Shown here piece after piece: positions 5,832-23,847 of a stretch of DNA of 38,909 bases. The translations under genes were made by a program, and so were the position numbers. The notes under the pieces were generated by a model. That model worked only from the letters and a program-made list of their open reading frames with translations, had not been told where the DNA came from and searched no databases. This DNA is from Defluviitaleaceae bacterium. Its GTDB lineage: Bacteria; Bacillota; Clostridia; Lachnospirales; WRAX01. Location: positions 1 to 38,909 of the forward strand of contig WRAC01000024.1 of NCBI GenBank assembly GCA_009780415.1, written 5' to 3'. The first letter of the stretch is position 1, and each line of letters starts with the position of its first letter.

Positions 5832-6410
5832 ATGAACGTTGGCAATGTAAGCAATGATTACGCAAATCCATACCAAGCGGGTATAAATCCGCTTACTCCT
5901 TCGTCAAACACGATACCTGAGAATTTAAGGCCCGATAGCGTCAATCCCGAAATCACGCGTCCGCGCGGGTTTGTAAGCCCTTCGGCCACGGAAGGCGACC
6001 TGCGCAAGGAAGGCTACAGCACTTCAGAAATTAAGGATTTAAAGCGCGCCGGGAAGATTCAGTGCGAAGCCTGCTCCAACCGGACATATCAGGATAAATC
6101 CAATGATTCCGGAGTAAGCTTCCAGGCCCCGACAAAGCTCTCCCCCGCGCAGGCGGCGATTGCGGTTCCGGCCCATGAGGGCGAACATGTCACCCGCAAC
6201 GCGGCAAAGGCTGAAAGCGAAGACCGCACCGCAGAAAGCGCGGTACGCATTTTTACGTCCGTATGCTCCGAATGCGGCATCAGCTACGTATCCGGCGGCG
6301 AAACGCGCACCGTTACAAGAAAAAAAGCCGAAACGCAAGACTTTGCGGATAAATTTGAGGATGATAAGATTACGCGCGGGGTCGGAAAGAATGTTGATGA
6401 AACTGCGTAA
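5832..6410 (+). CDS. small protein with HExxH and paired CxxC motifs (putative metalloprotease-like)
   Basis: 192 residues, function not known to me. The start at 5832 is chosen because AAGGAG (5818-5823) overlaps the receptor stop at good spacing; an in-frame GTG at 5823 lies on that site. There is no signal peptide. Motifs are CEAC (78-81), HEGEH (115-119, matching HExxH of zinc peptidases) and CSEC (145-148). This resembles small SprA-like putative metalloproteins, but the match is by memory of pattern only. The N-terminus is Pro/Asn-rich and the C-terminus is charged. Co-transcription with the chemotaxis receptor suggests a surface, motility or regulatory link, which is inference. A MITE-like element begins one base after its stop. 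Confidence 0.6.
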   Translation: MNVGNVSNDYANPYQAGINPLTPSSNTIPENLRPDSVNPEITRPRGFVSPSATEGDLRKEGYSTSEIKDLKRAGKIQCEACSNRTYQDKSNDSGVSFQAPTKLSPAQAAIAVPAHEGEHVTRNAAKAESEDRTAESAVRIFTSVCSECGISYVSGGETRTVTRKKAETQDFADKFEDDKITRGVGKNVDETA

Positions 6411-6572
6411 TACCATCTTGCAATCTTAGTGATAGTTAGTGAGTAATGTCGTACGCTGTAGCGAAGCGCGGTACGACTTGCCCATGGCGCGGTCTTTGCG
6501 CCGTCAGTAATCCATGGCGCGGTTTTTGCGCCGTCAGTAAAAGCTTACTGTCACTTAGATTGCAACATGGTA
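6411..6572. mobile_element. MITE-like element with about 28-bp terminal inverted repeats
   Basis: The left end (6411-6438, TACCATCTTGCAATCTTAG...) and the right end (6545-6572) are near-perfect inverted copies: the reverse complement of the right end reads TACCATGTTGCAATCTAAG and continues GTGACAGTAA against GTGATAGTTA. The ends can be read as TA-CCAT...ATGG-TA, compatible with insertion at a TA dinucleotide. Inside lie a 7-bp palindromic hairpin (GTCGTAC 6448-6454, GTACGAC 6471-6477) and two tandem 30-bp units. At 162 bp with no coding capacity it looks non-autonomous. No second copy is in the window, so mobility is inferred from structure alone. Confidence 0.6.
6482..6541. repeat. two tandem 30-bp repeats inside the MITE-like element
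   Basis: Units at 6482-6511 and 6512-6541 both begin CCATGGCGCGGT and end TTTGCGCCGTCAGTAA, differing by one C/T within the unit and at the last base. They are directly adjacent with no spacer and lie between the internal hairpin and the right inverted repeat of the element. Confidence 0.85.
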
Positions 6573-6600
6573 TAAGGGGGCACCTTCGGGCGTCCCTTCT
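6573..6600 (+). promoter_or_regulatory. hairpin in the hutU leader
   Basis: Between the MITE-like element and hutU the sequence AAGGGGGCACC - TTCG - GGCGTCCCTT can fold into a stem with a UUCG-type tetraloop, one mismatch and one bulge. No T run follows, so it is not a standard terminator. It ends six bases before the GGAGGG ribosome site of hutU and may affect mRNA stability or translation. Confidence 0.35.
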
Positions 6601-6616
6601 AAAATTGGAGGGATTT

Positions 6617-8632: not shown

Positions 8633-9390
8633 GCGGGTCTAAACCGATGGAGAATGTAAATGATTACATTGAGCATGTAAAATCGCCTTGGGGCAGGATG
8701 TTTTATGATTTGCTTTTTATTCAGCTTGACATTCCGGAGACACCAAGGTTAAAAATCCTCGACTTCGGCTCGGGCCTTGGCGTTACGGCGGATTATTACG
8801 CCGCTTGGCATGATGTGACCGCGGTTGAGTATAACGCGGAAATGATTGTAAACAGGTTTAGGGAAAATTCGTATACGCAGATTCATGGCGCCGTTGAGCA
8901 TATAGCAGCTTTTTCCAGTAATACTTTTGATGTGGTTATTTGTCATAATGTTTTGGAATATATCAAGGATCAGGAGCCTGTTTTCGCGGAACTTCTAAGG
9001 GTGCTGAAACCGGGCGGGACTCTGTCTGTTGTGAAGCATAACCAGTACGGGAAGGTTTTTCACAGCGCGGTTTTTTGGAATGATCCCGGAAAAGCCTTGT
9101 CACTTCTTAAAAACAGTACCAGCGGGAATATTAATTTTATAGGGACGCAATACATTTATTCTTATAAGGACGCGGCGGCGTGGTCTGAAAAATATGGCGG
9201 GACAATCAAAAGGGTCTTTGGCATGAGGGCGTTTTGGGCGCTTGGACAGAATAGTGACGTAAAATATAACGATGATTGGTACCGGAATATGCTTGAGCTG
9301 GAACGCCAGGCGGCTGATATTGATGAGTATAAAAATGCTGCGTATCATAATCACATATTGATTGAAAAAAGGAGTTGGACCGATGAGTAA
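8629..9390 (+). CDS. class I SAM-dependent methyltransferase inside the hut operon
   Basis: 253 residues with a Rossmann-type methyltransferase core: motif I LDFGSGLGVTADYY (about 41-54), an acidic residue ending strand two (VEYN), then VVICHNVLEYI and LRVLKPGGTLSVVKH (motifs typical of the methyltransferase-11 family). The substrate is unknown. It overlaps hutU by ATGA and ftcD by eight bases, so it is translated as part of the histidine operon although no histidine degradation step needs a methyl transfer. It could modify a small metabolite or simply have been captured by the operon. Confidence 0.8.
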   Translation: MSGSKPMENVNDYIEHVKSPWGRMFYDLLFIQLDIPETPRLKILDFGSGLGVTADYYAAWHDVTAVEYNAEMIVNRFRENSYTQIHGAVEHIAAFSSNTFDVVICHNVLEYIKDQEPVFAELLRVLKPGGTLSVVKHNQYGKVFHSAVFWNDPGKALSLLKNSTSGNINFIGTQYIYSYKDAAAWSEKYGGTIKRVFGMRAFWALGQNSDVKYNDDWYRNMLELERQAADIDEYKNAAYHNHILIEKRSWTDE

Positions 9391-10276
9391 ACTTGTTGAA
9401 TGCGTACCTAATTTCAGCGAGGGCAGGAATTTGGACATAGTTGAGAAAATTGCAAGTGAGTTTCGGGGCAAGGAAGGCGTGAAGCTGCTGGATTATTCAA
9501 GCGATAAGGACCATAACCGCTCCGTGGTGACCGTGATTGGCGCGCCCGATGCGGTTTCCGCGGCTATGGTTAATGCGGCGGGGGTTGCGGTGGAGCTTAT
9601 CGACTTGACAAAGCATAAGGGCGAGCATCCCCGCATGGGCGCTGTTGATGTGATCCCGTTTATTCCCGTGCGCGGGATGAAGATGCAGGAATGCGTTGCG
9701 CTGTCAAAAACCGTGGCGAAGGAGATTTATGATAAATACGGTTTGCCAAGCTATTTATATGAAAACTCCGCGTCTTCGGAAATGCGCAGGAACCTTGCCG
9801 ATGTGCGCAGGGGTGAATTCGAGGGGCTTGCGGCAAAGATGCAAAAACCCGGCTGGAAGCCCGATTTCGGTGATGCGCCGCACCCGACGGCAGGGGCAGC
9901 CGCTGTAAGCGCGCGTGAATTTTTGATCGCGTTTAATGTAAATCTGGGAACCTCCGATTTAGCAATTGCCGTAAAGATATCAAATGTAATCCGGCATTCC
10001 GGCGGCGGGCTTCGCTTTGTGAAGGCTATGGGCGTTGACCTCGCCGAGCGTAATATCGCGCAAGTTTCAATGAACCTGACTGACTACAGAAGAACTTCGA
10101 TCTACCGCGTTTTTGAACTTATTAAAATCGAAGCAGCGCGATATGGCGTGCCGGTTATCGGCAGCGAGGTTATCGGGCTTTTGCCCATGCAGGCGCTGGT
10201 TGATACGGCGGAATATTATTTGCAAATAGAGGGCTTCAAAAGCAGCCAGATAATTGAGGCGGGCCTTTTGGAATGA
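9383..10276 (+). CDS. ftcD: glutamate formimidoyltransferase
   Basis: Transfers the formimino group of N-formimino-L-glutamate to tetrahydrofolate, giving glutamate and 5-formimino-THF. The start at 9383 follows AAAAAGGAG; an upstream in-frame ATG at 9362 lies inside the methyltransferase gene and leaves no ribosome site. The 297-residue protein has the CVPNFSEGRN signature (residues 7-16) and His82 in HKGEHPRMGAVDVIPF, the position of the catalytic His in the mammalian enzyme. It corresponds to the N-terminal half of the mammalian bifunctional protein; the cyclodeaminase half is the separate gene at 11508. It overlaps hutI by ATGA. Confidence 0.95.
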   Translation: MSKLVECVPNFSEGRNLDIVEKIASEFRGKEGVKLLDYSSDKDHNRSVVTVIGAPDAVSAAMVNAAGVAVELIDLTKHKGEHPRMGAVDVIPFIPVRGMKMQECVALSKTVAKEIYDKYGLPSYLYENSASSEMRRNLADVRRGEFEGLAAKMQKPGWKPDFGDAPHPTAGAAAVSAREFLIAFNVNLGTSDLAIAVKISNVIRHSGGGLRFVKAMGVDLAERNIAQVSMNLTDYRRTSIYRVFELIKIEAARYGVPVIGSEVIGLLPMQALVDTAEYYLQIEGFKSSQIIEAGLLE

Positions 10277-11514
10277 ACAGATACACCGTAAAATCCAGAA
10301 ATATATGTTCGTTTGACGATAATGGGAAAATGCGCGTTATTGACGGTTTTATAGTTATTGGCGACGATAAAATAGAGGATGTTACGGCGCGTGTGCCGGA
10401 CGGGCTTGATATATTGGACGCGTCGGATATGACCGTAACTCCGGGGCTTATCGACGCGCACACGCATCTCGTTCACGCCGGGTCGCGCGAAAACGAGATG
10501 AGCATGAAGCAAAACGGCGTATCGTACTTGGAAATACTTAAAAACGGCGGCGGGATATTAAGCACCGTAAATAAAACCCGCGCCGCCTCAAAAGATGAAC
10601 TGAAGGCAAAGGCTTTGAAGAGCTTGGACATCATGCTGTCTCACGGCACTACCACAGTTGAGGCCAAGAGCGGCTACGGGCTGGATTTTGAAACCGAAAT
10701 CAAGCAGCTTGAAATTGCGCGTGAATTGAACGATTGCCATCCCGTCAGCATTGTTTCAACATATATGGGCGCGCATGCCATACCCGCAGAGTATAGGGAA
10801 AACCGGCGGGGGTATGTGGATTTGATGATTAATAAAGTAATGCCTTATACGGCGGAAAACGGACTGGCTGAGTTTTTCGATGTTTTTTGCGAGGACGGCG
10901 CGTTTACGCTTGACGAGACGGTTGAGTTGTTTGAAGCGGCGCAAAAACTGGGTTTTGGGTTGAAGCTGCACGCAGACGAAATTGTACCGATGGGCGGCGC
11001 GGAGCTTGCGGCGCGGTTTGCGGCTGCGTCGGCGGAGCATCTGCTGGCCGCGTCCGACGCCGGGATTGCTGTCCTTGCGGAAGCCGGCGTTACGGCGGTG
11101 CTTTTGCCCGCCACCGCATTTTATCTGATGAAGGGGCATTACGCCAGGGCACGGGAGATGATAAAAGCGGGAATGCGCGTGGCTCTGGCGACGGATTATA
11201 ACCCGGGGAGCTGTCCAACGGAGAACATGCAGGCTGTAATGACTTTCGCCGCGTTTGGTATGGGGCTGACAACCGAGGAAATTTTAAGGGGAATGACATT
11301 AAACGCGGCTTACGCGATTAACAGGCAGAAATCCATCGGCAACATCAAAGCCGGAATGAACGCGGATTTGGTAATTTTTGACGCGCCTAACCCGGATTAT
11401 ATAATTTATCATTTTGGTATAAACCATGTTGATATGGTAATTAAAAATGGAAAGACCGTTTTTAACCACAAAAATCACAAAAAAACACAAAAAAAGGATG
11501 GCAAGTTATGTTAA
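10273..11514 (+). CDS. hutI: imidazolonepropionase
   Basis: Third step of histidine degradation: hydrolyses 4-imidazolone-5-propanoate to N-formiminoglutamate. It is an amidohydrolase-fold metal enzyme of 413 residues. DAHTHLVHAG (61-70) holds metal ligands His63 and His65; EAKSGYGLD, the LHADE segment and ATDYNPGS carry further ligand and substrate residues. The ATG overlaps the ftcD stop. The C-terminus has an unusual Lys/His-rich tail (NHKNHKKTQKK) encoded by an A-rich repeat also seen near 23951; family members I recall end close to the preceding VIKNGKTVF. Confidence 0.95.
   Translation: MNRYTVKSRNICSFDDNGKMRVIDGFIVIGDDKIEDVTARVPDGLDILDASDMTVTPGLIDAHTHLVHAGSRENEMSMKQNGVSYLEILKNGGGILSTVNKTRAASKDELKAKALKSLDIMLSHGTTTVEAKSGYGLDFETEIKQLEIARELNDCHPVSIVSTYMGAHAIPAEYRENRRGYVDLMINKVMPYTAENGLAEFFDVFCEDGAFTLDETVELFEAAQKLGFGLKLHADEIVPMGGAELAARFAAASAEHLLAASDAGIAVLAEAGVTAVLLPATAFYLMKGHYARAREMIKAGMRVALATDYNPGSCPTENMQAVMTFAAFGMGLTTEEILRGMTLNAAYAINRQKSIGNIKAGMNADLVIFDAPNPDYIIYHFGINHVDMVIKNGKTVFNHKNHKKTQKKDGKLC
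11471..11497. repeat. dispersed A-rich short repeat, copy 1
   Basis: AAAATCACAAAAAAACAC followed by an A run. It matches 23951-23975 at about 24 of 25 positions. It codes for the extra C-terminal tail of hutI and ends at the ribosome site of fchA. Low complexity makes chance similarity possible. Confidence 0.4.
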
Positions 11515-12140
11515 TGGATATGAGCCTGCGTGATTTTTGCGCGCTGCTGGCTTCGAAGGAACCCGCGCCGGGTGGCGGCAGCGTTTCCGCGTTTGCCGGG
11601 GTTTTGGCGGCTTCGCTTGGGCAGATGGCTGTGAATTTGACCGTTGGGAAGAAGGTTTTTGAGTCCGCCGATGATATTGTTAAGGAAGCGGTTAATGAGG
11701 CGGGCGCGGAGCTTGCCGGGCTGGGAGAACGGCTGACAAAGCTTGTGGACGATGACACCGAGGCTTTTAACGCTTATATGACGTCATTTAAGATGCCAAA
11801 AGCCTCGGATGAGGAAAAAAATGCGCGGAAAAAGGCTTTATCCGCGGCTGAGGAAGTGATTGTAAGCGTCCCGCTCGCCACATTTACGGCTTGTTCGGAG
11901 ATTTTTCCGCATTTGGCAACACTTGCCGTTTATGGGAACAAAAATTGCATATCGGATGTCGCCGTTGCCGCGAATATGGCTCTTTCCGGCATGGAAGGCG
12001 GTATGTACAATGTTCTTACTAATAAAATGCATGATGGAAAACGCACTGAGTATACGGAAAAAATGACGCGGATGCTGAATGAGGCCGCCGTCTGCCGAGA
12101 TAAAATAATTAACACCGCCAAGGAGATTTTTAATGAGTGA
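11508..12140 (+). CDS. fchA: formiminotetrahydrofolate cyclodeaminase
   Basis: Converts 5-formimino-THF to 5,10-methenyl-THF and ammonia, releasing the one-carbon unit from the ftcD product into folate metabolism. The all-helical 210-residue protein shows the family start LRDFCALLASKEPAPGGGSVSAF (seen in pieces, residues 7-29) with the PAPGGGS loop. The start at 11508 follows AAAAAGGATG and overlaps the hutI stop by seven bases; the downstream in-frame ATGs (MLMDM) are alternatives. Its 3' end overlaps hutH by eight bases. Confidence 0.93.
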   Translation: MLMDMSLRDFCALLASKEPAPGGGSVSAFAGVLAASLGQMAVNLTVGKKVFESADDIVKEAVNEAGAELAGLGERLTKLVDDDTEAFNAYMTSFKMPKASDEEKNARKKALSAAEEVIVSVPLATFTACSEIFPHLATLAVYGNKNCISDVAVAANMALSGMEGGMYNVLTNKMHDGKRTEYTEKMTRMLNEAAVCRDKIINTAKEIFNE

Positions 12141-13647
12141 ATTGGTTTTGACCGGGCACAGCCTGCGAATTGCCGATGTTATAAACGTTTCATTCCACCG
12201 CCGGCCCGTGGCGGTATCAGATGAGGCAAGCGCCGCCGTCGCGGCTTCCCATAATATAGTGCGCGATAAAATAAACAAGCGCGAAGTTGTTTACGGTATT
12301 ACAACCGGGTTCGGCAACCTTGCAAATGTCGTTATCGACCCCGGACAATCCGCCCTTTTACAGAAAAACCTTATCGTAAGCCATGCCTGCGGAGTTGGTG
12401 AACCCTTCCCGACGGAGGTTGTACGCGGTATAATGCTGCTTCGCGCAAACGCGCTGGCAAACGGTTTTTCCGGCGTTTCCCCCCGATGTGTGAGTATTCT
12501 TACTGACATGCTTAACGCGGGCGTACATCCCATTGTGCCTATGAAAGGTTCCCTTGGCGCAAGCGGCGACCTCTGCCATTTGGCACATGTGGCGCTGGTT
12601 ATGATGGGCATGGGCGAAGCGGAATTGAACGGGATGCGCATAAGCGGCGCGGATGCCATGGAAAAGGCCGGGATAACAGTCCTTGAGCCAACGGGCAAAG
12701 ACGGGCTGGGGCTGATAAATGGCACGCAAGCCATGTCGGCGATAGGTGTTTTTTGCGTTTACGATGCCATTATGCTGCTTGAGCTGGCGAATGCCTGCGC
12801 CGCGCTCACGCTGGAAGCCCTGGGCGGGAGGATAGACGCTTTTGACGAAAAACTTCACAAGGCGCGCCCTCATCCCGGGCAAATCATTTGTGCCGGGGAA
12901 CTGCGCCGCCTGCTAAACGGCAGCAAAAATACCGGCAGCGCGCGCCGTGTACAGGACGCCTACACCCTGCGCTGTGTGCCGCAAGTCCACGGAGCGTCGT
13001 GGGACGCGATAAATTACGCTAAAAATGTGCTGACCATCGAGATCAATTCCGTTACCGACAATCCCATTGTTTTCCCGGATAGCGGTGAGGGTCAGATTAT
13101 ATCCGGCGGGAACTTCCATGGACAGCCGCTTGCGCTGGCCCTCGATTTCCTTGCCATTGCCGTTGCCGAGCTTGCCAGCATTTCCGAGCGCCGCACGGAA
13201 CGGCTTGTAAATCCGCAGCTTAGCGGCTTGCCGGGATTTTTAACGCAGAACCCCGGCGTAAATTCCGGCATGATGATACCGCAGTATACGGCAGCATGTC
13301 TTGTTTCGGAAAATAAAGTGCTGGCGCATCCGGCAAGCGTGGACTCCATCCCGTCCTCCGCGAATCAGGAGGACCATGTGTCGATGGGCGCCATCTCAGC
13401 GCGTAAATGCAGCGAAATTATCAACAACGTTAAATATGTGCTTGCCATAGAGCTGATGGCCGCCGCCCAGGCCGTTGATATCGGCGGTTCGGTTAACGGG
13501 CTTGGCGATTATACATCCAAGCTTTACCGCGAGATACGCAAAGCCGTGCCGCGGCTTGACGACGACCGCGTTCTGTCACCCGATATCGAAAAGATTGCGG
13601 CGTTGATTGACGACGGGGCATTGAACAGGGTTATTGAGGAGGATTAG
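12133..13647 (+). CDS. hutH: histidine ammonia-lyase
   Basis: First step of histidine degradation: non-oxidative deamination to urocanate. The 504 residues carry the Ala-Ser-Gly triad (143-145, in GSLGASGDLCHL) that cyclises into the MIO electrophile, the catalytic Tyr54 in YGITTGFG, and SVTDNPIVF. Although it acts first, it is the last gene of the operon. AAGGAG inside the end of fchA is its ribosome site. The stop lies five bases from the convergent spoVAE stop and no terminator hairpin fits between them. Confidence 0.96.
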   Translation: MSELVLTGHSLRIADVINVSFHRRPVAVSDEASAAVAASHNIVRDKINKREVVYGITTGFGNLANVVIDPGQSALLQKNLIVSHACGVGEPFPTEVVRGIMLLRANALANGFSGVSPRCVSILTDMLNAGVHPIVPMKGSLGASGDLCHLAHVALVMMGMGEAELNGMRISGADAMEKAGITVLEPTGKDGLGLINGTQAMSAIGVFCVYDAIMLLELANACAALTLEALGGRIDAFDEKLHKARPHPGQIICAGELRRLLNGSKNTGSARRVQDAYTLRCVPQVHGASWDAINYAKNVLTIEINSVTDNPIVFPDSGEGQIISGGNFHGQPLALALDFLAIAVAELASISERRTERLVNPQLSGLPGFLTQNPGVNSGMMIPQYTAACLVSENKVLAHPASVDSIPSSANQEDHVSMGAISARKCSEIINNVKYVLAIELMAAAQAVDIGGSVNGLGDYTSKLYREIRKAVPRLDDDRVLSPDIEKIAALIDDGALNRVIEED

Positions 13648-13652
13648 CGATT

Positions 13653-14009
13653 TTACTCTTTTGCCTTGGGATTAAAAGCCACCGCGGCCAAAAGCCCGAA
13701 CAGCACCGCAGCCGAGATACCGGCGGCCGTCATTTTCAATCCGCCGGTGAGGACGCCCAGCAGCCCGGATCTATTTACCTCTTCTTTTACTCCCCTTGCC
13801 AGTAGGTAACCGAAGCCCGGCAGCGGTATTGTCGCGCCCGCGCCCGCGAACTCCGCAAACCGCCCGTAAACACCGATACCCCCGAGCAGGCAGCCGATTA
13901 CGACGAACATAACCAAAATCCGTGCGGGTGTGAGTTTTGTTTTATCAATTAATATCTGGCCGATGACGCAAATCAACCCGCCGATAAGAAACGCTTTTAA
14001 AAAAATCAT
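13653..14009 (-). CDS. spoVAE: stage V sporulation protein AE
   Basis: 118-residue integral membrane protein with about four hydrophobic segments, part of the SpoVA complex that moves Ca-dipicolinic acid across the inner forespore membrane. It resembles the SpoVAE (AEb) type by size, position and the segments GGLICVIGQ and GAGATIPLPGFG. These two segments recur in SpoVAC (GGLICVFAQ, GAGAIVPITGF), indicating the two are paralogues. AGGAGG overlaps its upstream neighbour's stop region. Last gene of the operon, convergent with hutH. Confidence 0.9.
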   Translation of the reverse strand: MIFLKAFLIGGLICVIGQILIDKTKLTPARILVMFVVIGCLLGGIGVYGRFAEFAGAGATIPLPGFGYLLARGVKEEVNRSGLLGVLTGGLKMTAAGISAAVLFGLLAAVAFNPKAKE

Positions 14010-14019
14010 TTTTACCCTC

Positions 14020-15039
14020 CTAGCTAATATTCTCTATGGCAACGGCGTGACAGATACCCGGAATTGATTCGCCCTGCTGGGCCGATGTGGTTGACAGAAG
14101 CGCTCCGGTAGGCAGCAGCAGCAGCTTACCGATTGCGCTGTTTTGCATCTGGTTATACAAATATCCCGCGAAGGTTACGGCGGAACAGGCGCAGCCGCTT
14201 CCGCCGCTGTGCGTATCCTGTGTTTCGCGGTCGAATATCTTAATGCCGCAGTCCGTGTAGTTGGATGATATATGATATCCCTGCTCCTGCGTTATCTTTA
14301 ACACCAGCTCATGCCCAATGTATCCCAAATCGCCTGTAATAATCAAATCATAATAGTCCGGATTTCTGCCCGTGTCCTTAAAATGCGTGATTAATGTATC
14401 CGCGGCAGATGGAGCCATTGCCGCTCCCATATTATTAATATCCGTAATACCCATATCCACAACCTTCCCCGCCGTATAGGCCGTTACGCAAATACCCTTT
14501 CCGCCGGTTTTGTTGGATAGGACAGCCGCGCCGTTGCCGGTTACTGTCCATGTGGAGGATGGCGGGCGCTGGCTGCCGAATTCGAGGGGGAAGCGGAATT
14601 GCTTTTCCGCGGCGCAGAAATGGCTGGACGCGGAGGCTATGACATTGTTGTAGAATCCGCCGTCTACCAGCATTGAGCCCACGCCCATTGCCAGGCCGAA
14701 GGTGGAACATGCCCCGAACATGCCGATGAACGGGCGGTTTAAATCGCGTACGCCGAAAGATGTGCCTATTATTTGATTTAATAGGTCGCCTGCCAGAATG
14801 CAGTCGATTTCCGTATCTAAAAGTCCCGACTTCTGGATGGCGAGTTTTATTGCGTCCGAAACAAATTTGCTTTCCGCCTGCTCCCATGACTTGCAATCCC
14901 ATAAAACATCTTCAACAACCCGGTCAAAATATTTACCGATAGGCCCCTGCCCTTCCTTCGGCCCGACAATGGAGGCCGCCGCGATAATTGACACGGGCTG
15001 CTGAAAGAAAACGGTTTGGTTTCCATGTTTTTTAGACAT
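14020..15039 (-). CDS. spoVAD: stage V sporulation protein AD
   Basis: Thiolase-fold protein of 339 residues; in Bacillus it binds dipicolinic acid and lies on the inner membrane of the forespore as part of the SpoVA channel. Recognisable segments are GPKEGQGPIG near the N-terminus, FGACSTFGLAMGVGSMLVDGG in the middle (seen in pieces; the Cys sits at the thiolase active-site position), DTHSGGSGCACSA and LLLPTGALLSTTS. AGGGGG precedes the start. Ten bases separate it from spoVAE and three from spoVAC. Confidence 0.95.
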   Translation of the reverse strand: MSKKHGNQTVFFQQPVSIIAAASIVGPKEGQGPIGKYFDRVVEDVLWDCKSWEQAESKFVSDAIKLAIQKSGLLDTEIDCILAGDLLNQIIGTSFGVRDLNRPFIGMFGACSTFGLAMGVGSMLVDGGFYNNVIASASSHFCAAEKQFRFPLEFGSQRPPSSTWTVTGNGAAVLSNKTGGKGICVTAYTAGKVVDMGITDINNMGAAMAPSAADTLITHFKDTGRNPDYYDLIITGDLGYIGHELVLKITQEQGYHISSNYTDCGIKIFDRETQDTHSGGSGCACSAVTFAGYLYNQMQNSAIGKLLLLPTGALLSTTSAQQGESIPGICHAVAIENIS

Positions 15040-15042
15040 TTC

Positions 15043-15501
15043 TTATCCCCCTATTCTGTTAAAAAGCCAATAGATTATGCCTATAACCCATGATGTGGCA
15101 AGCCCATAGACAATAACAGGCCCGGCGATTACAAACATTTTCGCGCCGACTCCGAAAATGAAGCCCTCTTTCTTAAACTCCACAGCCGGTGCCGCGACGG
15201 CGTTCGCGAAGCCCGTTATGGGAACAATCGCCCCCGCGCCGCCAAACTTCGCCAGATTGTCGAACACGCCGATGCCTGTCAGCAACGATGCCAAAAATAT
15301 AAGGCTTACGGACGAAAGGGTGGAGGCAATGTCTTTTTCTACGCCCATACGCAAGAGCCATTGGATTATCGCCTGCGCGAAAACGCAGATAAGCCCGCCG
15401 ATTGCAAAGGCCTTGCAGCAATTGGTAAAAATATTACTGTTTGGCGATGATTTGTCTACCATTTGTGAGAAGCGTTCCTTGGTGATATTTGAGTTGTCCA
15501 T
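15043..15501 (-). CDS. spoVAC: stage V sporulation protein AC
   Basis: 152-residue membrane protein, known in Bacillus as a mechanosensitive channel component needed for dipicolinic acid uptake and release. A hydrophilic N-terminus of about 25 residues precedes a conserved CCKAFAIGGLICV start and four or five hydrophobic segments, with GGAGAIVPITGFANAV as the family signature. AAGGAG lies before the ATG. It shares repeated motifs with spoVAE. Confidence 0.95.
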   Translation of the reverse strand: MDNSNITKERFSQMVDKSSPNSNIFTNCCKAFAIGGLICVFAQAIIQWLLRMGVEKDIASTLSSVSLIFLASLLTGIGVFDNLAKFGGAGAIVPITGFANAVAAPAVEFKKEGFIFGVGAKMFVIAGPVIVYGLATSWVIGIIYWLFNRIGG

Positions 15502-15511
15502 TTTAATCTCC

Positions 15512-15949
15512 TTAGTTTGTTTTTATAAAACCCGGAACAATAAAATATATCAAAGCCCCCGCGGCTTTTCCGGCGGCTAAAGCAATAATAAAGAATCCAA
15601 GGCCTTTTTGCAAACCGGCGCGGCGGCCCAGTACGGGCAGTACGTTCAGAATTTCGGCAAGGCATACGGCAAGGCATCCGAGAAAAACGCCGTATGTAAG
15701 GCCTGTTATGATGTTGCCGAGCATCCCAATGGGAATTTTATAATTAAACGCAAGGCTTCCCGCGCCGAATATCCCGCCCGCTATGATGCATTCCTCATAA
15801 AACTTAATATATCTCTGCGTTCCGGATTTACGCGCAAGCCTTGGGATTATGCCCACAACGGCGATAAAGGCGAACACCGCGCCTGAAACGACAAGCCCCG
15901 CGCATAGGCCCGTAATTATTAAAGCGCCTGTTTTAAGAACTTCCATCAT
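15512..15949 (-). CDS. spoVAB: stage V sporulation protein AB
   Basis: 145-residue membrane protein with about four hydrophobic helices, matching SpoVAB in position and in segments such as GLCAGLVVSGAVFAFIAVVGIIPR (in part), KFYEECIIAGGIFG and LAEILNVLPVLGRR. Its start overlaps the end of spoVAA by 17 bases, with GGGGGAGA before a double ATG; the second ATG (15946) is an equally good start. Confidence 0.9.
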   Translation of the reverse strand: MMEVLKTGALIITGLCAGLVVSGAVFAFIAVVGIIPRLARKSGTQRYIKFYEECIIAGGIFGAGSLAFNYKIPIGMLGNIITGLTYGVFLGCLAVCLAEILNVLPVLGRRAGLQKGLGFFIIALAAGKAAGALIYFIVPGFIKTN

Positions 15950-16571
15950 TCTCTCCCCCGTATTTGTTTTTTCTTGCGGCTAAAAAGTCTACAAGTGTCT
16001 CCGTTACGGTCTTGTCATAATCGGACATTTCGATCTCGATAGGCGACGGGTCCTCCTTAATCTTCCTTCCTCCCAAATGGTTGAAAAAGACAATAATACC
16101 GCCGGCTATCCCGATGACATATGAAATTTGGATTGCGCGCGGTTTGTCGGTATCCTGGCCTGTGAACATTTTGTGATAGGCCTTGAAAACCTTGGGTATC
16201 TCGGCGTCGTTGTGGAAACTCATAATTGCCGTAGCCGCGCCTATTGCGAACACAAGGCCGATCAATGTGATTTTCAACCATTTCCAAAACGGTATATCTT
16301 TCTGCTCATGGGCGTGGTATAAAACGATGGTATCCATTTCGCCCACATTATTTACGGTATGTCCGGGAAGGCTCTGGTCTATGGCTTTTATTACATCAAT
16401 AACGGATACCAGGTGCATTTTTTTCTTGTCACCTTCCGTTGCGAAAAGCTTCACCCTTTCAACGCGTTCCTTAATCTCAGGCGGTGCTTGTACCTCGCAG
16501 ACATGACCGACGGTGATGTGGCTTTCACCGGACACGGCTGCTTTTTTTGCGGGTTTTACATATATATCCAT
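15933..16571 (-). CDS. spoVAA: stage V sporulation protein AA
   Basis: First gene of the dipicolinic acid transport operon. An N-terminal soluble part of about 100 residues (starting MDIYVKP and containing VSVIDVIKAID) is followed by two membrane segments (about 107-125 and 150-168) and a short charged tail, as in SpoVAA. The start at 16571 is chosen because GGAGG sits seven bases upstream; an ATG at 16589 overlaps that ribosome site. A sigma-G-like promoter lies 25-55 nt upstream. Confidence 0.9.
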   Translation of the reverse strand: MDIYVKPAKKAAVSGESHITVGHVCEVQAPPEIKERVERVKLFATEGDKKKMHLVSVIDVIKAIDQSLPGHTVNNVGEMDTIVLYHAHEQKDIPFWKWLKITLIGLVFAIGAATAIMSFHNDAEIPKVFKAYHKMFTGQDTDKPRAIQISYVIGIAGGIIVFFNHLGGRKIKEDPSPIEIEMSDYDKTVTETLVDFLAARKNKYGGENDGSS

Positions 16572-16595
16572 TGGATAGCCTCCATTCAATAGCTT

Positions 16596-16689: not shown

Positions 16690-17328
16690 TTATTTATTTG
16701 TTCGGTTTGCTGTTGCCAGAGCCGCCAGCTCAAATACTTCCTTTTGCGTCATTTGGTCGGTAAGCTCGCCGCTCCCCTTGCCCATTTCTGCGAGCCGCTC
16801 GGCTACCGTGTCATATGCATCGGGTGTAAAATATGTCTCCGAGCACATAACGGATAATAACGCGCCGTAATCGAAGGGGCGGTACAGGACATTGTGCGCG
16901 CCGTTTTTAACAGACTCCAGCACCAGCACCGGAAGCCTTGTGGACGTAACCATTATTATCTTGCTTCCGCGGTCCTTTTTCAAATCGGTCAGCGCTTCAA
17001 TGCCGTCCAGTTCAGGCATCGTTACGTTTAAAAAAACATAATCAAAATGCTCGTCACCATTAAATATCTTAACGGCTTCGTAACCGTTCTCCGCGCGCGC
17101 GCTTACGTTAATCCCGGCCCTTGCCAGCCATTCCTCCATCATCAGGCGCATCATGACCGAATCGTCAACAACCATGGCAGTCCGCCCGACAAGGAGTTTT
17201 CTCTTTTTATTATACTTAGCATGTAAATCTGTCATCGCCTCTGAAAGCAGCTCAACCTCGGCGGTTCCCCAATCCCGCGCAAGCTGTGACATAATTTCCT
17301 GCCATGCTCCCGTTGTATGCGCCGACAT
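16690..17328 (-). CDS. degenerate response-regulator receiver protein (Asn at phosphoacceptor site)
   Basis: 212-residue protein: about 48 N-terminal helical residues, then a CheY-like receiver (about 50-165), then a short helical tail with no DNA-binding domain that I recognise. The acidic pair VVDDS (Asp55, Asp56) and Thr128 are kept. The position of the phosphorylated Asp, before xxMPELDG, is Asn101 (codon AAC), and the conserved Lys before PF is Arg150. Phosphorylation in the usual way is therefore unlikely; it may work as a constitutive or protein-protein switch. The start at 17328 has GGGAGGGG four bases upstream. It is monocistronic, with its own promoter and terminator. Confidence 0.85.
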   Translation of the reverse strand: MSAHTTGAWQEIMSQLARDWGTAEVELLSEAMTDLHAKYNKKRKLLVGRTAMVVDDSVMMRLMMEEWLARAGINVSARAENGYEAVKIFNGDEHFDYVFLNVTMPELDGIEALTDLKKDRGSKIIMVTSTRLPVLVLESVKNGAHNVLYRPFDYGALLSVMCSETYFTPDAYDTVAERLAEMGKGSGELTDQMTQKEVFELAALATANRTNK

Positions 17329-17399: not shown

Positions 17400-18236
17400 C
17401 TAAAAACGATAAATCCCGGCGGCGTTGCCCCAAAAAACATCGGGCCAGACATTCTGCGGAATAATGGCCTTGCACATCTCTGTATACGGGCCAACCGGCG
17501 CAAGGGGCCAATCCGTACCGAAGATGACTTTTTTGTAGTTGTTAAGGAAAAGGAAGCCTTGTCTGAAGTAACCGTTTATCAGCGGTTCGCTTACCATCCT
17601 TTCGCATTCCGAAGCGCCGCCCACCGCAAGCCCCGAGATATCCACATAAACATTGGCGTGTTTATAAGCTATCTCACAGGCTTCCATAACCCAGGGGAAA
17701 CCCACATGGCAGATAATTATCTTCATTTCCGGATACATATGCGCCAGTTTATCCACATGCAGCGGGCGTGAATATTCGATCAGGCCTCCCTTGAAATATG
17801 TGTCGCCGCTGTGGATCGCAACGGGTAAGCCATATTCCGCGGCAATCCTATATACAGGCTCATAAACCTTGGCGTAGATATGCTTATGATAATATCCGGC
17901 GTAAATTTTAAACCCCGCAATGTCACTTCGGGTTTTAACGGCCTTTTCGATTTCCGCGATGCTTTGTCCGCCCATTTTATGCGGGTTTATCCCCATACAG
18001 ACCCGCATATTGTGCATTGGCGTATCCAGCTCGGCGAACATAGGCGTTTGCGCCATTTTATCCGGCGTTTTACCCGGCGCGGTTTCGGTAATCCCCATAC
18101 ATACGCTGCCGGTAACACCGGCTTCGGCGTACTCCTTCGCAAGCCCGGCGGAGGAATAATCAACGCCGGAATCCGCGGCCCCCTGGCGAAACGCCTGTAT
18201 ATTTGAGAAATGCATATGCGCGTCGATTATATTCAT
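17400..18236 (-). CDS. amidohydrolase-2 family metal-dependent hydrolase/decarboxylase
   Basis: 278-residue TIM-barrel protein of the amidohydrolase superfamily, closest by pattern to the ACMSD-like amidohydrolase-2 group. Metal and active-site residues appear in the expected order: DAHMH (5-9), FKIYAGYYHK (109-118), AIHSGD with His142, ICHVG with His177, and FGTDWP with Asp242. Substrate unknown; the family includes hydrolases and decarboxylases. AGGAG precedes the ATG by seven bases. Fourth and last gene of the HD/lipoprotein/GNAT operon, ten bases after the fusion gene. No terminator is visible after it. Confidence 0.82.
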   Translation of the reverse strand: MNIIDAHMHFSNIQAFRQGAADSGVDYSSAGLAKEYAEAGVTGSVCMGITETAPGKTPDKMAQTPMFAELDTPMHNMRVCMGINPHKMGGQSIAEIEKAVKTRSDIAGFKIYAGYYHKHIYAKVYEPVYRIAAEYGLPVAIHSGDTYFKGGLIEYSRPLHVDKLAHMYPEMKIIICHVGFPWVMEACEIAYKHANVYVDISGLAVGGASECERMVSEPLINGYFRQGFLFLNNYKKVIFGTDWPLAPVGPYTEMCKAIIPQNVWPDVFWGNAAGIYRF

Positions 18237-18246
18237 ATACAGTCTC

Positions 18247-21200
18247 CTAGAATGTTATACGTTCCAAAGCGGCTAACTCCGGCGCGGATAAATCCTTGTC
18301 AGTCAGGATATGGAACATCGGCGCGGTAAGCAGTTCGCCGCCGTTTTCAAGGCGCAGGCTAATATCACGCGTAAACTCGGACGAGTTGATACTATTCCCG
18401 GAATAGCACCATGTCCTCCTGTCCGCAAGGTTCGGCACGTAATGCAGCTTGCTGTTTTCCGCGGATAGCTTAATAAATTGGACGTCATTGGTACGGAAAT
18501 CATTTCCCCCCAGCATAAAACGCCGCTGTTTTCCCTTATGTTTAATTTCCGCCTCACGTTCGCCAAATCCGCTTCCGAAGGCAGGGAAAAACACCTCATA
18601 CGCTTCCAATTTCAGATATCCTCCGGTGCTGTTAGCAAACCGCGTAAACGCGCATAAAACAGGCACACCCGGCAATGTCAGGTAAAACTGTTCATAAACA
18701 AGCCCCTTGTATTCCTTGTGGTTAACTACGTCAACGCGGGTTTTTATCCCCTGCCAGTTATTACCGAAGCAATCCGTCACGGCGGTGAATTCCGCCGACA
18801 TCTTTTCCTTTAAAGCCGCCATGCAATTCATTTTATTAAAAACGACATACATGCCGCCCACAAAGGGGTTCCACCACGAGTAAGGCTCCAGTTTCGGATA
18901 TTTGCTCATCAGCCACTCTGTTCCGTAACTGTCTTGCAACGAAAATAAACCAGCGTAATGATTCGGGTCGGATTTAAAAGTCAGCAAGCCATTGGATACG
19001 CTGAGTACGCCATCATTTTTTATTGTTTTTATACCGCCGCCAGGGAAGAAAACCGCTTGTCTCCTTTCAGAAAGGTATGAAGGGAAGGACATCCGCGCAT
19101 TCACCACGCCGATGCCGCCATTCAAACGGGTTTTATCGGGTCTAACCGTAAAATTATTCTCCGCAACCCGTTCATCTTTCGGGTTTATTTGAACACACGG
19201 CTCGAAAAACCCGTCATGCGCCGGAACTATTTCAACCTTGCCTTCATATGACATATTGCGGTTGTTTAACAGTGCGGCCGTAAACTCATCGCCGCAGATA
19301 AACGGATTACGCCCGTTTACGTTTAACTCTAGTAAATCTTCCGCGGGTTCCGTGCGCGCGCTGTAAACGCCGCGCGCGAAATCCCGGAACGACATATAAT
19401 CCCTGAAACCGCCGATTGAGCAGATAACAGGCGGTGTCTCAAATACTTTTCCGGGTTGAATATCACCGAATTTATGCTCTAACTCCACAACGTCATTCCA
19501 TTTGAAAACGGGCTTCAGCTCCGGCGACCAGCATGTGCCGACGGGTAAAGCGGGGTCATTTTCAAACAGCCAGTTTTCTTCAAACAAGCCGGGATCTGCG
19601 GCTGCGATACCTTGATCGCCCGCGTCGGACGACATCACGGTCCGCCCTCCGTAGCGGTAGACGGCGTTGTGATCGACGCCGGCACACACTATTTCACTGA
19701 GGAATACGGCTTTCGGCGCGTTTCCCTCGTTTTCAAGGCGGTTTACGCGCGTAACAACACCCCCGGCCGACAAGGTATAAATCATGGTCATCATAATACC
19801 GGCCTGTTTTTCGGAACGGTAAGAAAGCTCCATTGCGATATCCGCGCCGGTTTCGTATGTCTTAACGTCTATAGGCACGGCCAGATTGAACTCGTCGTCA
19901 TAAGGCTTGCCCAGTTTACAGGGCAGGAATTCAATTTGTGTCATGCTTTCATTACCTAGAAGATATTTTACCTCGGTGCGGTTGCTGTCTTTAAGCGTAT
20001 AAAGCTCAAAAAGCCCGTTTACCAATCCGTAAGCGTCCTCATTATCATAAGCGAAACGCCCCGAAAGGCCTTTGCTTATGATATCCGTCGGCATGGTGAA
20101 CTGCGCCGCTTGACCGTTTTCAAGGGTTATGGCGCAAGGTATCCCAAGCGTTACATGCCCTGTTTTCAAGACCTCCGCCGTTAATTTAACGCTTGCTTTA
20201 CCCAACGCGCACGTTTCAACCGTTTTATCGGAATAATCAAATCTGATATAATCATTTTGTGGCAATGTAAATTGAATGCCAGCCGCGGACAACAGCGCGC
20301 TTTTAACTGTAATAAACGCGTCAAAACGCTTCCCGGGGATGGCAAGGCCGCACTCCGCGTCGAATGCCGCCGTAAGGGGCGCCTTAGCCTCAATGCCCGC
20401 GCCCATTTCCAACTCCAAGCCATTTACCGTGACATTGGCTAATAAACACGGATGCTTGCGGAAGGGGTCTTGTTTATGCGCGGGCTTGTTTACGCGGAAT
20501 GCCGATATGTACTCCGCCTCATCTTTAACCGTATCCGCGCATTCAAAATCCCATTCAATAACGCCGTCGTTTATGCTTCTTATTTTCACGCCAAGAGGCT
20601 TACCGCTCTTGTTTTTAACAATCAGCTTCGCTTTATAATCAAAACCATAGGCAAGCTGATGGTTTTCCGCGCCCAGCTCAACGGTATAATCATCTGTTTC
20701 AACACGGCAAATCCGCCTGCCGGATTTTTCAAATGTTACCTCAAGCCATTCGCCTTCTTTAGCCCATTTATATGTGAAAAACTCAAAATCAGCGTCAAAC
20801 ATGCCGTCGGGAATAATCTCCAGGCTTCTGGCGGAGTCGGCGTACCAGTCCGCTTTTGCGAAGAAGGGCTTTAACAAATCCTGCGCCAGTACCGTAGGGA
20901 TGAAATTCGACAGATGCGTGGTCTCCGAGTTGTCCTCCCACATAAAGCCGCATTTTTTATACAGCGGCACGGCCTTCACGTTTCCGGGCCAGGTGTGCAG
21001 CTCAAGGCGCGGGAACCCCACCTCCATTGTGCGCTCCACACACAGCAGCACAAGGGCTTTCCCCAGCTTTTTAGATTGATAGTCGGGCCGGACGTTTAAC
21101 ACATGGATATAAAGCGCGTCCGCGTCCTTATAATACCGGGCCAGGCTGCAAAGCCCGGCGACCTCGTTTCCGTCCAACGCCACGTAAACATTGTAATATG

Positions 21201-21363
21201 AGCCTGTGCGGAAAAAGTCTATTTGAGCCTGCTCTGTAGCCAAATCACTGCCGCCGCCCCAAAATTCCGCGCTTCTGTTCCACATCTCCGCAAGCCCGGC
21301 GGCGTAACATTCTTCATATTCAACGATTTTGATACCGTTTTCAAGAGTTTTATATACTTTCAT
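18247..21363 (-). CDS. 1038-residue fusion: N-terminal GNAT acetyltransferase and large beta-rich C-terminal region
   Basis: Residues 1-165 are a GNAT acyltransferase: LYIHVLNVRPDYQSKKLGKAL (in part, about 84-104) is motif A with the acetyl-CoA loop, and AVPLYKKCGFMWE is motif B. The remaining 870 residues have no membrane segment or signal peptide. They alternate short beta-type stretches with Gly/Asn turns, repeatedly resembling beta-sandwich and carbohydrate-processing folds (for example GGMYVVFNK, LPGVPVLCAFTRF), but I recognise no catalytic motif. AGGAGG precedes the start. It is co-transcribed with a sugar-binding-type lipoprotein and an amidohydrolase. A role in modifying an amino sugar or glycan-derived substrate is a guess from context. 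Confidence 0.7.
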   Translation of the reverse strand: MKVYKTLENGIKIVEYEECYAAGLAEMWNRSAEFWGGGSDLATEQAQIDFFRTGSYYNVYVALDGNEVAGLCSLARYYKDADALYIHVLNVRPDYQSKKLGKALVLLCVERTMEVGFPRLELHTWPGNVKAVPLYKKCGFMWEDNSETTHLSNFIPTVLAQDLLKPFFAKADWYADSARSLEIIPDGMFDADFEFFTYKWAKEGEWLEVTFEKSGRRICRVETDDYTVELGAENHQLAYGFDYKAKLIVKNKSGKPLGVKIRSINDGVIEWDFECADTVKDEAEYISAFRVNKPAHKQDPFRKHPCLLANVTVNGLELEMGAGIEAKAPLTAAFDAECGLAIPGKRFDAFITVKSALLSAAGIQFTLPQNDYIRFDYSDKTVETCALGKASVKLTAEVLKTGHVTLGIPCAITLENGQAAQFTMPTDIISKGLSGRFAYDNEDAYGLVNGLFELYTLKDSNRTEVKYLLGNESMTQIEFLPCKLGKPYDDEFNLAVPIDVKTYETGADIAMELSYRSEKQAGIMMTMIYTLSAGGVVTRVNRLENEGNAPKAVFLSEIVCAGVDHNAVYRYGGRTVMSSDAGDQGIAAADPGLFEENWLFENDPALPVGTCWSPELKPVFKWNDVVELEHKFGDIQPGKVFETPPVICSIGGFRDYMSFRDFARGVYSARTEPAEDLLELNVNGRNPFICGDEFTAALLNNRNMSYEGKVEIVPAHDGFFEPCVQINPKDERVAENNFTVRPDKTRLNGGIGVVNARMSFPSYLSERRQAVFFPGGGIKTIKNDGVLSVSNGLLTFKSDPNHYAGLFSLQDSYGTEWLMSKYPKLEPYSWWNPFVGGMYVVFNKMNCMAALKEKMSAEFTAVTDCFGNNWQGIKTRVDVVNHKEYKGLVYEQFYLTLPGVPVLCAFTRFANSTGGYLKLEAYEVFFPAFGSGFGEREAEIKHKGKQRRFMLGGNDFRTNDVQFIKLSAENSKLHYVPNLADRRTWCYSGNSINSSEFTRDISLRLENGGELLTAPMFHILTDKDLSAPELAALERITF

Positions 21364-21377
21364 TGCTCCTCCTATTG

Positions 21378-22703
21378 TTAATTCGCATTAATCATTGCAG
21401 GGCGGCTGTACAGCCATTCCAGGCGTTTAAAATCATCGGGCGCAAGCAAATCCTCAAAGGCCGCGGCGCGGCTTGAAAGCGGCGGCAAGCCCAGCCGCTC
21501 GCGCTCCCTTTCCTCTTCCAGTCTATCCGCAAGGCCATAATATGTAATTATAAGCTTAATATAATCACTTGCGTCCGCTTTTGCCAGAGCGCCCTGTTCA
21601 CCCGCTGCCAGAGCGAAAACCCGCGCGTCGGAAGCGGTTGCCCTATAATTGCTTGTCAGCATGTTTTCAAGGGCCGCGAATCCCGTGTTTATTTTAATAT
21701 TCGGGCCCCAGGGGTAAGGAACGATGCCAATTTCCATGCCCGCTTCCAGCATAACCGCCAAGTCATCCGCGTTTCCCGCCGTAATCACCGCCGTGCCGGG
21801 ACCATCGGGGGAGTGCAAAATATTATATACTTCCAATCTGTTGATAAATTCCTTTGTTTGCAAAATCGAAGGCGTATTTTGCACGGACTGTCCGGTTTCA
21901 GGGTGATAAAGGAAGCCGCCGTTCGAATAAACCATATTTTCCCATAAATCCGCCGATTCCACCGAAATCGCGTAATATCCCGGCAGAAGGAGATTGTTAA
22001 GAATCAGGCAATAATCGTAAAAATCGTTCCAGTCCCATTCCCCGCGGTCAAAAAGGTTTCCCGGCATTTCACCAATCCCGGCGCCGCGGATCAAGGCTTT
22101 GTCGTAAATTAGGAATGAATCCGCAACCAGCGGCGTTACGGAGAAACCATACAACCTGCCATCCGTCCAACCCGCTGCGTAATATGCCTCGGGCAGGCCG
22201 GAATTAAGCACCGCGTCCGTTATATCCTCGACCAGCCCGGCGCGCGCAAGCTGTTCCATGCCAGCCCTGTCCACCAAAATAATATCGGCCGCCGGCTCAC
22301 CCTCGAACATGCGTTCCGCCAGTTCTTCCGCCAGAGTTACGATGCTTCTGCCGCCGATAGCGTCGAACGCCATGGTTATGTTAAAAAGCATTTCAATCTC
22401 ATAATGGCGTCTTTGCCATATTTCCGCGTATTCACCATATAACACGGCGGCGGCTTGCGGATTTGGGACGCCGCCAAAACCGATAACCGCACCGCCAAGG
22501 TCAACCACCGGGGTGATTTCAGGGGGTTCGGGGGGTTCGGGCGGCAATGGGGGTTGCGTTGGGGTTGGGGTTGGGCTGGGGATTGGTTCTTCGGTATGGA
22601 TTAGGGTAATAATGGGAGCAGGTTCGTCGGGCCTTCTGCAAGACGACACAAAAAGACAAGCAAAAATCGCCGCGGCATAAAAAAGGAACATCCTTTTTCC
22701 CAT
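21378..22703 (-). CDS. ABC-type extracellular solute-binding lipoprotein (sugar family)
   Basis: 441-residue secreted lipoprotein. The signal peptide MGKRMFLFYAAAIFACLFV ends in a lipobox VSSC with Cys22. A Pro/Thr-rich linker (about 35-65) tethers the binding domain, which has features of family-1 solute-binding proteins: DIILVDRAGMEQLARAGLVEDIT, then WTDGRLYGFSVTPLVADSFLIYDK and WDWNDFYDYC. The start at 22703 follows AGAGGGG; an ATG at 22721 overlaps that site. No permease or ATPase gene is adjacent, so it is an orphan binding protein here, or shares a transporter encoded elsewhere. Confidence 0.85.
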   Translation of the reverse strand: MGKRMFLFYAAAIFACLFVSSCRRPDEPAPIITLIHTEEPIPSPTPTPTQPPLPPEPPEPPEITPVVDLGGAVIGFGGVPNPQAAAVLYGEYAEIWQRRHYEIEMLFNITMAFDAIGGRSIVTLAEELAERMFEGEPAADIILVDRAGMEQLARAGLVEDITDAVLNSGLPEAYYAAGWTDGRLYGFSVTPLVADSFLIYDKALIRGAGIGEMPGNLFDRGEWDWNDFYDYCLILNNLLLPGYYAISVESADLWENMVYSNGGFLYHPETGQSVQNTPSILQTKEFINRLEVYNILHSPDGPGTAVITAGNADDLAVMLEAGMEIGIVPYPWGPNIKINTGFAALENMLTSNYRATASDARVFALAAGEQGALAKADASDYIKLIITYYGLADRLEEERERERLGLPPLSSRAAAFEDLLAPDDFKRLEWLYSRPAMINAN

Positions 22704-22721
22704 GTTTACCCCTCTTTTCAA

Positions 22722-23339
22722 TTACCATTCAAACGTATTATTCACAATATTATCCAACAATGTGTAAACATTACAATTTGACAGAATATCAAAATACTGT
22801 TTCAAATCAAAATACATTTTCCATTTATTAATTATTTTCTCGCAAAGCCCATACCGCATAACCACATTAACCAGTCTTTTTTCCATCAAAACCGCCCCTT
22901 GCGCGTATGACAGAGCGTCACAAAGCTGTATCAATTTATCATAATCAGTATAAGATTTTGATTTAAGGAAATTATCAATAAATTCAAAATCATCTTGCGA
23001 ACAGTCTATATCCCCGACGTATTCGGCTATATCCTGCGTAGGAAATGAATGCGTCAAGCAAATCTCAGCCGCATCGGGATACCCTTCTTTCATTAAATAA
23101 TTATAACCGTCCAAAACATGCCTGATATGTGAATAACCTTCACGCCGCCCGATGTCATGGAGCAGCCCGAGTACATAGGCGGCATCCGCATCCATCTCCG
23201 GGCAACGCTCCGCGATGGCCTTGGCTATTCCGGCAGCGACTTTTGAATGCTCAATCCAAGGTCCCGGATTCATTTTTCCGGAGCTTTCCATCATTGAAAC
23301 AGCTATCTGTATCGAAGGGATATTTACGAACCTCACCAT
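22722..23339 (-). CDS. HD-domain phosphohydrolase-type protein
   Basis: 205 residues with an HD metal-binding domain: His31 in EHSK, the doublet His61-Asp62 in LLHDIGR, His97 and Asp141, the usual order for HD hydrolases acting on nucleotides or phosphate esters. The C-terminal 60 residues are helical and unassigned. The ribosome site (AAAAGG) is very close to the ATG, so a start at an internal Met (residue 16 or 17) is possible. It is the first gene of the operon, only 12 bases after the rnpB terminator; I see no clear promoter of its own. Confidence 0.8.
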   Translation of the reverse strand: MVRFVNIPSIQIAVSMMESSGKMNPGPWIEHSKVAAGIAKAIAERCPEMDADAAYVLGLLHDIGRREGYSHIRHVLDGYNYLMKEGYPDAAEICLTHSFPTQDIAEYVGDIDCSQDDFEFIDNFLKSKSYTDYDKLIQLCDALSYAQGAVLMEKRLVNVVMRYGLCEKIINKWKMYFDLKQYFDILSNCNVYTLLDNIVNNTFEW

Positions 23340-23350
23340 CCTTTTACCAT

Positions 23351-23392
23351 AAAACCTTTAACCCGTAACAATCGTTGCGGATTAAAGGTTTT
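23351..23392 (-). terminator. terminator-type hairpin after rnpB
   Basis: Arms 23351-23365 and 23378-23392 pair over 11 bp plus 3 bp with one C-A mismatch and a 12-nt loop. In the rnpB direction the U tract is the TTTT at the stem base, then ATGG; on the plus strand a longer TTTTATTTT follows. It probably ends rnpB but may leak into the HD-domain gene. Confidence 0.65.
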
Positions 23393-23398
23393 ATTTTC

Positions 23399-23814
23399 GC
23401 GCGAGCTACCTGTAAGCCGAGTTCTGTCCGCCATTATCAATATGGCGTAACGGGCATCTATCTGGGCTTTCCGTCGCCGGAAAGCTCTAGCGGCCTAACC
23501 CGAAGCAATTCACCGGCAATACCGAATAATGCAGTGAACGGGCGGGCAGCCCTGTTGCTTCTGCTTGGCCTTGCGCCGGATGGGGTTTACAGAGCGCCCT
23601 CCGTCGCCGGAGAGCCGGTGAGCTCTTACCTCACCTTTCCACCCTTGCCTTTAAAATCGGGGTAGCGTCCCAACTTTACGGCGGTTTATTTCTGTTGCAC
23701 TGTCCTTGGGGTTACCCCCACCGGCCGTTAGCCGGCATCCTGCCCTTTGGCGCTCGGACTTTCCTAATCAAGAACAATACGGCTTCTTGATTCGCCCGTC
23801 CGGTTTACTCGCCT
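23399..23814 (-). ncRNA. rnpB: RNase P RNA, bacterial class A-like
   Basis: Catalytic RNA that removes tRNA 5' leaders. On the minus strand the RNA begins GGCGAGTAAACCGGACGGGC, contains the universal GAGGAAAGTCCG-like segment (AGGAAAGTCCGAGCGC), the GCCGGCTAACGGCCGG helix and GGGGGTAACCCCAAGGACAG, and ends ACAGAACTCGGCTTACAG, the P4 partner strand. The 5' GCGAG pairs with CTCGC near 23401-23405 to close helix P1, giving about 416 nt. A full-consensus promoter sits at the 5' end. Short reading frames in this region are not genes. Confidence 0.95.
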
Positions 23815-23818
23815 ATGT

Positions 23819-23847
23819 ATTATACATGAAAACTTTTTTTGTGTCAA
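23819..23847 (-). promoter_or_regulatory. full-consensus sigma-A promoter of rnpB
   Basis: Minus strand TTGACA (23842-23847), exactly 17 nt, TATAAT (23819-23824): a perfect match at both elements. The start would be near 23812, coinciding with the 5' strand of helix P1. Confidence 0.9.

Follow-up and report, generated by a model that had tools for sequence, protein, structure and literature searches.

A conserved two-gene module, found in many Bacillota, is formed by the genes for a large GNAT acetyltransferase fusion protein (FUS) and an amidohydrolase (AH). The pair was located in a window of 38,909 nt, the whole stretch of DNA analysed, which represents one entire contig. FUS is a large conserved bacterial protein present in about 5% of the sampled genomes of the phylum, and its dedicated neighbour AH provides a handle on its substrate. 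A search of the literature for the domain architecture of FUS or for the FUS-AH gene pair found nothing relevant, and the module apparently comprises known domain types in a new combination with an undescribed partner gene. An earlier note, made from the sequence of the window alone, had knowledge of no described system composed of FUS, AH and the two genes preceding them; this appears to hold for the FUS-AH pair, while the four-gene composition does not constitute a system.

Gene organisation and transcription

Four ORFs were found on the minus strand in the order HD-SBP-FUS-AH, separated by 18, 14 and 10 bases as the earlier note had described, and Pfam agrees with the families to which that note assigned them. 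The first encodes an HD-domain hydrolase (HD; 22722-23339, minus strand; Pfam HD, PF01966, 3.4e-10) and the second, from an ATG start, a solute-binding lipoprotein of the family-1 type (SBP; 21378-22703, minus strand; Pfam SBP_bac_1, 3.4e-9). Both are neighbours specific to this window and lie outside the conserved module. FUS (18247-21363, minus strand; 1038 amino acids), the first gene of the conserved pair, is supported by Pfam, by its occurrence as a single ORF in relatives and by an AlphaFold2 model. AH (17400-18236, minus strand), the second gene of the pair, encodes a metal-dependent hydrolase of the Amidohydro_2 type. A good Shine-Dalgarno sequence precedes each of SBP, FUS and AH. None of the four products matched an anti-phage profile of PADLOC with E up to 0.01.

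Directly upstream of HD lies the gene for RNase P RNA (rnpB; 23398-23811, minus strand; Rfam RF00010, 292 bits), the 3' end of which is approximately 60 bases ahead of the HD start codon. A sigma-70-type promoter agreeing with the consensus at 12 of 12 positions (TTGACA-17-TATAAT; 23819-23847, minus strand) was placed for rnpB, the match to which begins 8 bases downstream. The hairpin between rnpB and HD (23349-23394, minus strand; -23.7 kcal/mol, z -6.1) is probably the rnpB terminator. Since this hairpin stops approximately 10 bases short of the HD ATG, there is scant space for a separate HD promoter, and transcription of the cluster probably begins upstream, either by read-through from rnpB or from a promoter inside rnpB. 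When rnpB was looked for next to HD relatives in other genomes, none was found.

A response-regulator gene (16690-17328, minus strand) is situated 71 bases behind AH on the same strand; a promoter of its own may lie at 17396-17368 (10/12), and behind the gene, at 16680-16653, is a terminator-like site. Downstream of it, again on the same strand, are spoVAC, spoVAD and spoVAE (13653-15501, minus strand). Two ORFs upstream of these (15512-15949 and 15933-16589) occupy the position of spoVAB and spoVAA, with no NCBIfam match for either. Given the spoVA genes in the window, the bacterium probably forms spores. At the contig edge (38828-38909, minus strand) lies the 3' terminal part of a 23S rRNA gene.

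Conservation of FUS

Relatives of FUS were gathered from the family of the window, from named genome contigs, from the class and from the phylum. They were present in 6 of 391 genomes of the class sample (E up to 1e-20) and 25 of 398 genomes of the phylum sample; the named contigs were mainly metagenome-assembled genomes labelled Defluviitaleaceae and Oscillospiraceae, together with one of Cloacimonadota. No FUS was found in viral contigs and a single case was carried by a plasmid, a 690-kb replicon of Cytobacillus. FUS is nearly always one ORF of approximately 1,040 residues, and because this ORF recurs in dozens of genomes it is real and not an artefact. The middle region was never found apart from the ~1,040-residue ORF in 249 genomes. 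Thirteen full-length relatives could be aligned over their entire length, and four distant relatives (L082-L085) have kept the length with strongly diverged sequence.

The GNAT acetyltransferase domain (residues 1-176; 20836-21363, minus strand) is the most conserved part of the protein, with a mean column identity of 72% compared with 57% for the middle region and 52% for the C-terminal domain. Pfam Acetyltransf_1 (PF00583, 1.9e-16) matches residues 41-140 only, and is matched by all 13 members. Each of the GNAT core residues W125, N128, A131 and Y135 is present in 42-43 of 45 homologues; among the positions of the superfamily core, N128, A131 and Y135 (motif B) are retained in 43 and G101 (CoA loop) in 42, and the first glycine of the CoA loop is often lysine. 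The PDB sequences nearest to this domain are of mixed or unknown function.

Sequence searches of Pfam, NCBIfam and the PDB yielded no match for the C-terminal part, these libraries detecting the GNAT domain only. Nor did FUS match any epimerase family in Pfam or NCBIfam at E up to 1, and the window protein matched no glycoside hydrolase (GH) profile. Residues conserved in the C-terminal part include W598, W612, W830, W870, D864, N868, E491 and E596, whereas no histidine is conserved in at least 38 of the 45 homologues over residues 434-1038. As no signal peptide is visible, FUS is inferred to be cytoplasmic.

Pairing of FUS and AH

Neighbourhoods were read at 44 non-duplicate FUS loci, L021 being left out as a near-duplicate of L017. 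AH lies immediately 3' of FUS on the same strand at 21 of these, and FUS and AH were the only two of the four genes to recur together; the conservation of at least three genes across genera, by which the earlier note had proposed to recognise a system, was not observed. In 20 of the 21 linked loci the gap between FUS and AH is -46 to +60 bases, and in the remaining locus (L018) it is 909 bases with one gene inserted. Linked loci come from at least nine families, counted by code or name, and occur in each of the two main clades of the FUS tree. No other gene of glycan metabolism was found repeatedly around the pair.

Among 397 phylum genomes (the window excluded), FUS was present in 20 as full-length matches and AH in 31 (E up to 1e-50). 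Both occurred together in 12 genomes against 1.6 expected (Fisher p 4.5e-10, a value that ignores kinship), with family f109 supplying 6 of the 12. A quick tree of FUS contains at least six changes of AH-linkage state forced by well-supported branches. An old FUS-AH pairing followed by repeated losses fits this tree, with repeated gains as the alternative. The proposition that FUS-linked AH proteins comprise one clade was rejected (p-AU 0.0005).

The adjacency of FUS and AH might have arisen from genome economy alone, the two proteins serving separate pathways. Approximately half of the FUS loci, whole clades included, lack AH next to FUS, and members of the AH subfamily are also encountered alone in other families, as this explanation would predict. 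However, the order, strand and overlapping or near-zero spacing of the linked genes are constant across the family codes or names represented and their co-occurrence is strong, which makes this explanation distinctly improbable.

Several variant arrangements were recorded. Locus L073 has two full-length copies of FUS in tandem ahead of a single AH gene (5969-12537). An in-frame TAG splits FUS at L031 (7030-10149), where the downstream AH is intact. In family f96 (L070, L072, L079 and L080), FUS occurs without AH and is followed by a conserved group of genes, among them one resembling PhzF, identified by eye from the N-terminal sequence, and an uncharacterised gene of approximately 200 residues.

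HD and SBP do not belong to this module. The earlier note had read all four genes as a system that captures, acetylates and hydrolyses a compound, a reading consistent with how closely they are packed on a single strand here. At the 43 other FUS loci, however, no relative of the HD or SBP of the window was found beside FUS, with or without AH, so that only the two-gene core of the proposed neighbourhood stands. HD relatives occur in eight other genomes with unrelated neighbours, none of them beside FUS where the neighbourhood was read. SBP has one close relative among the family genomes (42%, G003; locus L154), also with unrelated neighbours; it adjoins another lipoprotein, with no permease seen there. 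Neither the four cluster genes nor the neighbours examined include a permease for SBP, the absence of which from the cluster had been recorded correctly by the earlier note; SBP thus lacks the partner expected of a CUT1-type ABC sugar importer. A four-gene system is accordingly a very remote prospect, although co-regulation of HD, SBP, FUS and AH could exist within the source lineage.

Predicted structure of FUS

The C-terminal 870 residues, for which the earlier note had recommended structure prediction and comparison, were resolved by this route into beta-sandwich regions and two galactose-mutarotase-like supersandwich domains; the sequence libraries contributed nothing to their identification. 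Mean pLDDT of the AlphaFold2 model was 80 for the whole of FUS and 85 for residues 176-690 modelled alone. Residues ~133-153 of the GNAT domain have a pLDDT under 50 and the acceptor-side details of this domain are consequently uncertain.

Following the GNAT domain, the models predict a beta-sandwich region belonging to no sequence family (residues ~186-430; 20074-20808, minus strand). The first supersandwich domain (residues ~434-673; 19345-20064, minus strand) was assigned using VIA-align, with matches to 8x1b (Z 16.6, 3.8 A, 223 residues) and 3mwx (Z 16.5, 2.9 A, 211 residues). A beta-sandwich linker domain, predicted from the secondary structure of the model (residues ~677-776; 19036-19335, minus strand), separates it from the second supersandwich domain (residues ~777-1038; 18250-19035, minus strand), for which VIA-align gave 5cd6 (Z 19.5, 3.2 A, 247 residues) and 3mwx (Z 19.0). 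Profile-profile comparison aligned the two supersandwiches end to end with an E of 0.0006 and a probability of 12%, which is too little to call a duplication. The top full-length matches in Foldseek (ciliary proteins, complement and LacZ) were disregarded, as TM-scores for these whole-chain matches were under 0.2.

For both supersandwich domains, sugar enzymes predominate among the closest structural matches, with a galactosaminidase at the top of the list for the first. These predicted folds support a carbohydrate link for FUS, and to this extent the glycan-related pathway suggested by the earlier note is retained. Its route of capture through the lipoprotein is unsupported, since SBP does not belong to the module and no permease gene adjoins it.

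The fold is also found in non-sugar proteins such as the periplasmic domain of YidC (Z about 13). It may be, then, that FUS acetylates a non-sugar amine (a peptide, polyamine, antibiotic or protein), its beta-rich C-terminal part providing a scaffold or a module for protein binding while AH removes a related toxic or waste compound. The mixed or unknown functions of the nearest GNAT structures and the faster evolution of the C-terminal part would be in keeping with such a role. The predominance of sugar enzymes among the structural matches and the conservation of aromatic and polar residues (W598, W830, D864, N868 and W870) argue against it, and we consider it somewhat unlikely.

Alternatively, the supersandwich region might itself be catalytic, acting as an epimerase, lyase or hydrolase whose product is modified by the GNAT domain; FUS would then be bifunctional and AH would provide a third activity. 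Enzymes with a supersandwich fold are known in the PL26 lyases and GH174 fucanases, and the conserved E596-N597-W598 and D864, N868 and W870 could represent active sites. Against this, the lack of a conserved histidine over residues 434-1038 makes GalM-type histidine catalysis unlikely, a judgement based on conservation rather than on residue-level superposition, and the FUS model shows neither a TIM-barrel nor an (alpha/alpha)6 catalytic domain. Catalysis by this region is therefore improbable.

The amidohydrolase

The Pfam match to PF04909 (6.8e-27) spans the whole of AH (residues 4-278). H7, H9, H142, H177 and D242, the metal ligands, and K110 are invariant wherever aligned among 37 relatives, corresponding to the HxH motif, two further histidines and an aspartate at the metal site that are expected of Amidohydro_2. 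AH is thus predicted to be a metal-dependent hydrolase or lyase of this group.

Proposed function

The reading of the module that we favour, tentatively and at somewhat less than an even chance, is that the supersandwiches of FUS hold a compound containing an amino sugar, the GNAT domain N-acetylates it and AH performs a related step. In the predicted cytoplasmic protein, the supersandwich part would bind a carbohydrate or glycoconjugate in a role other than that of a mutarotase and position a free amine of the ligand for the GNAT domain, which would N-acetylate it from acetyl-CoA. AH would probably work on this compound too, either ahead of its acetylation or following it, as part of salvage or detoxification. 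The carbohydrate ligand, the N-acetylation reaction, the order of the steps and a pathway shared by FUS and AH are all inferred. The gene pairing and co-occurrence, the predicted folds, the conserved GNAT core, the AH ligands, the restriction of the middle region to the full-length ORF and the precedent of RmNag (below) speak for this amino-sugar reading; the occurrence of the same fold in YidC, the FUS loci without AH, the lone AH genes and the absence of other recurring glycan-metabolism genes near the pair speak against it.

A broader formulation would have a widespread and so far undescribed pathway of Bacillota for a glycan-derived amine, in which FUS, bearing a double supersandwich and no classical glycosidase domain, presents an oligosaccharide to the GNAT domain of the same chain and the dedicated AH completes the conversion. 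This is rather unlikely. Should the amino-sugar reading be true, the module would add a new step to salvage or detoxification, together with a novel way of linking an acetyltransferase with folds that bind sugars.

Comparison with known systems

The closest solved relatives of AH are 3irs (BB4693; 1.7e-14) and 3cjp (5.8e-4), both of which are uncharacterised members of Amidohydro_2; no report was found of either beside a GNAT fusion. The GalM-like proteins 3mwx and 4bze share the galactose mutarotase fold with residues 434-673 and 777-1038 of FUS (Z 16.5 and 19.0, respectively). FUS differs from them in its low identity (10-12%), the absence of a conserved catalytic histidine and the presence of two copies of the fold per chain.

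A full-length homologue of FUS with 28% identity over 93% is present in Cytobacillus spongiae (WP_233811912.1) but, unlike the gene in the window, has no AH gene beside it. Its RefSeq name, 'GNAT family N-acetyltransferase', covers the GNAT part only, the first sixth of the protein. The acetylation of de-N-acetylated sugars by a Bacillota species, proposed to serve glycan salvage, may be likened to FUS as far as its description alone allows.

RmNag of Rhizomucor miehei is a GH3 beta-N-acetylglucosaminidase with a GNAT region and acetylates GlcN and chitosan oligomers (PMC4680927). Like FUS, it combines a GNAT acetyltransferase with domains of carbohydrate-enzyme type in one polypeptide, an amino-sugar acceptor being the working hypothesis for FUS. 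The two differ in arrangement: the GNAT region of RmNag is C-terminal and accompanies a GH3 catalytic domain, whereas that of FUS is N-terminal and accompanies two supersandwiches with no recognisable GH domain. RmNag serves as a precedent for FUS but is not a homologue.
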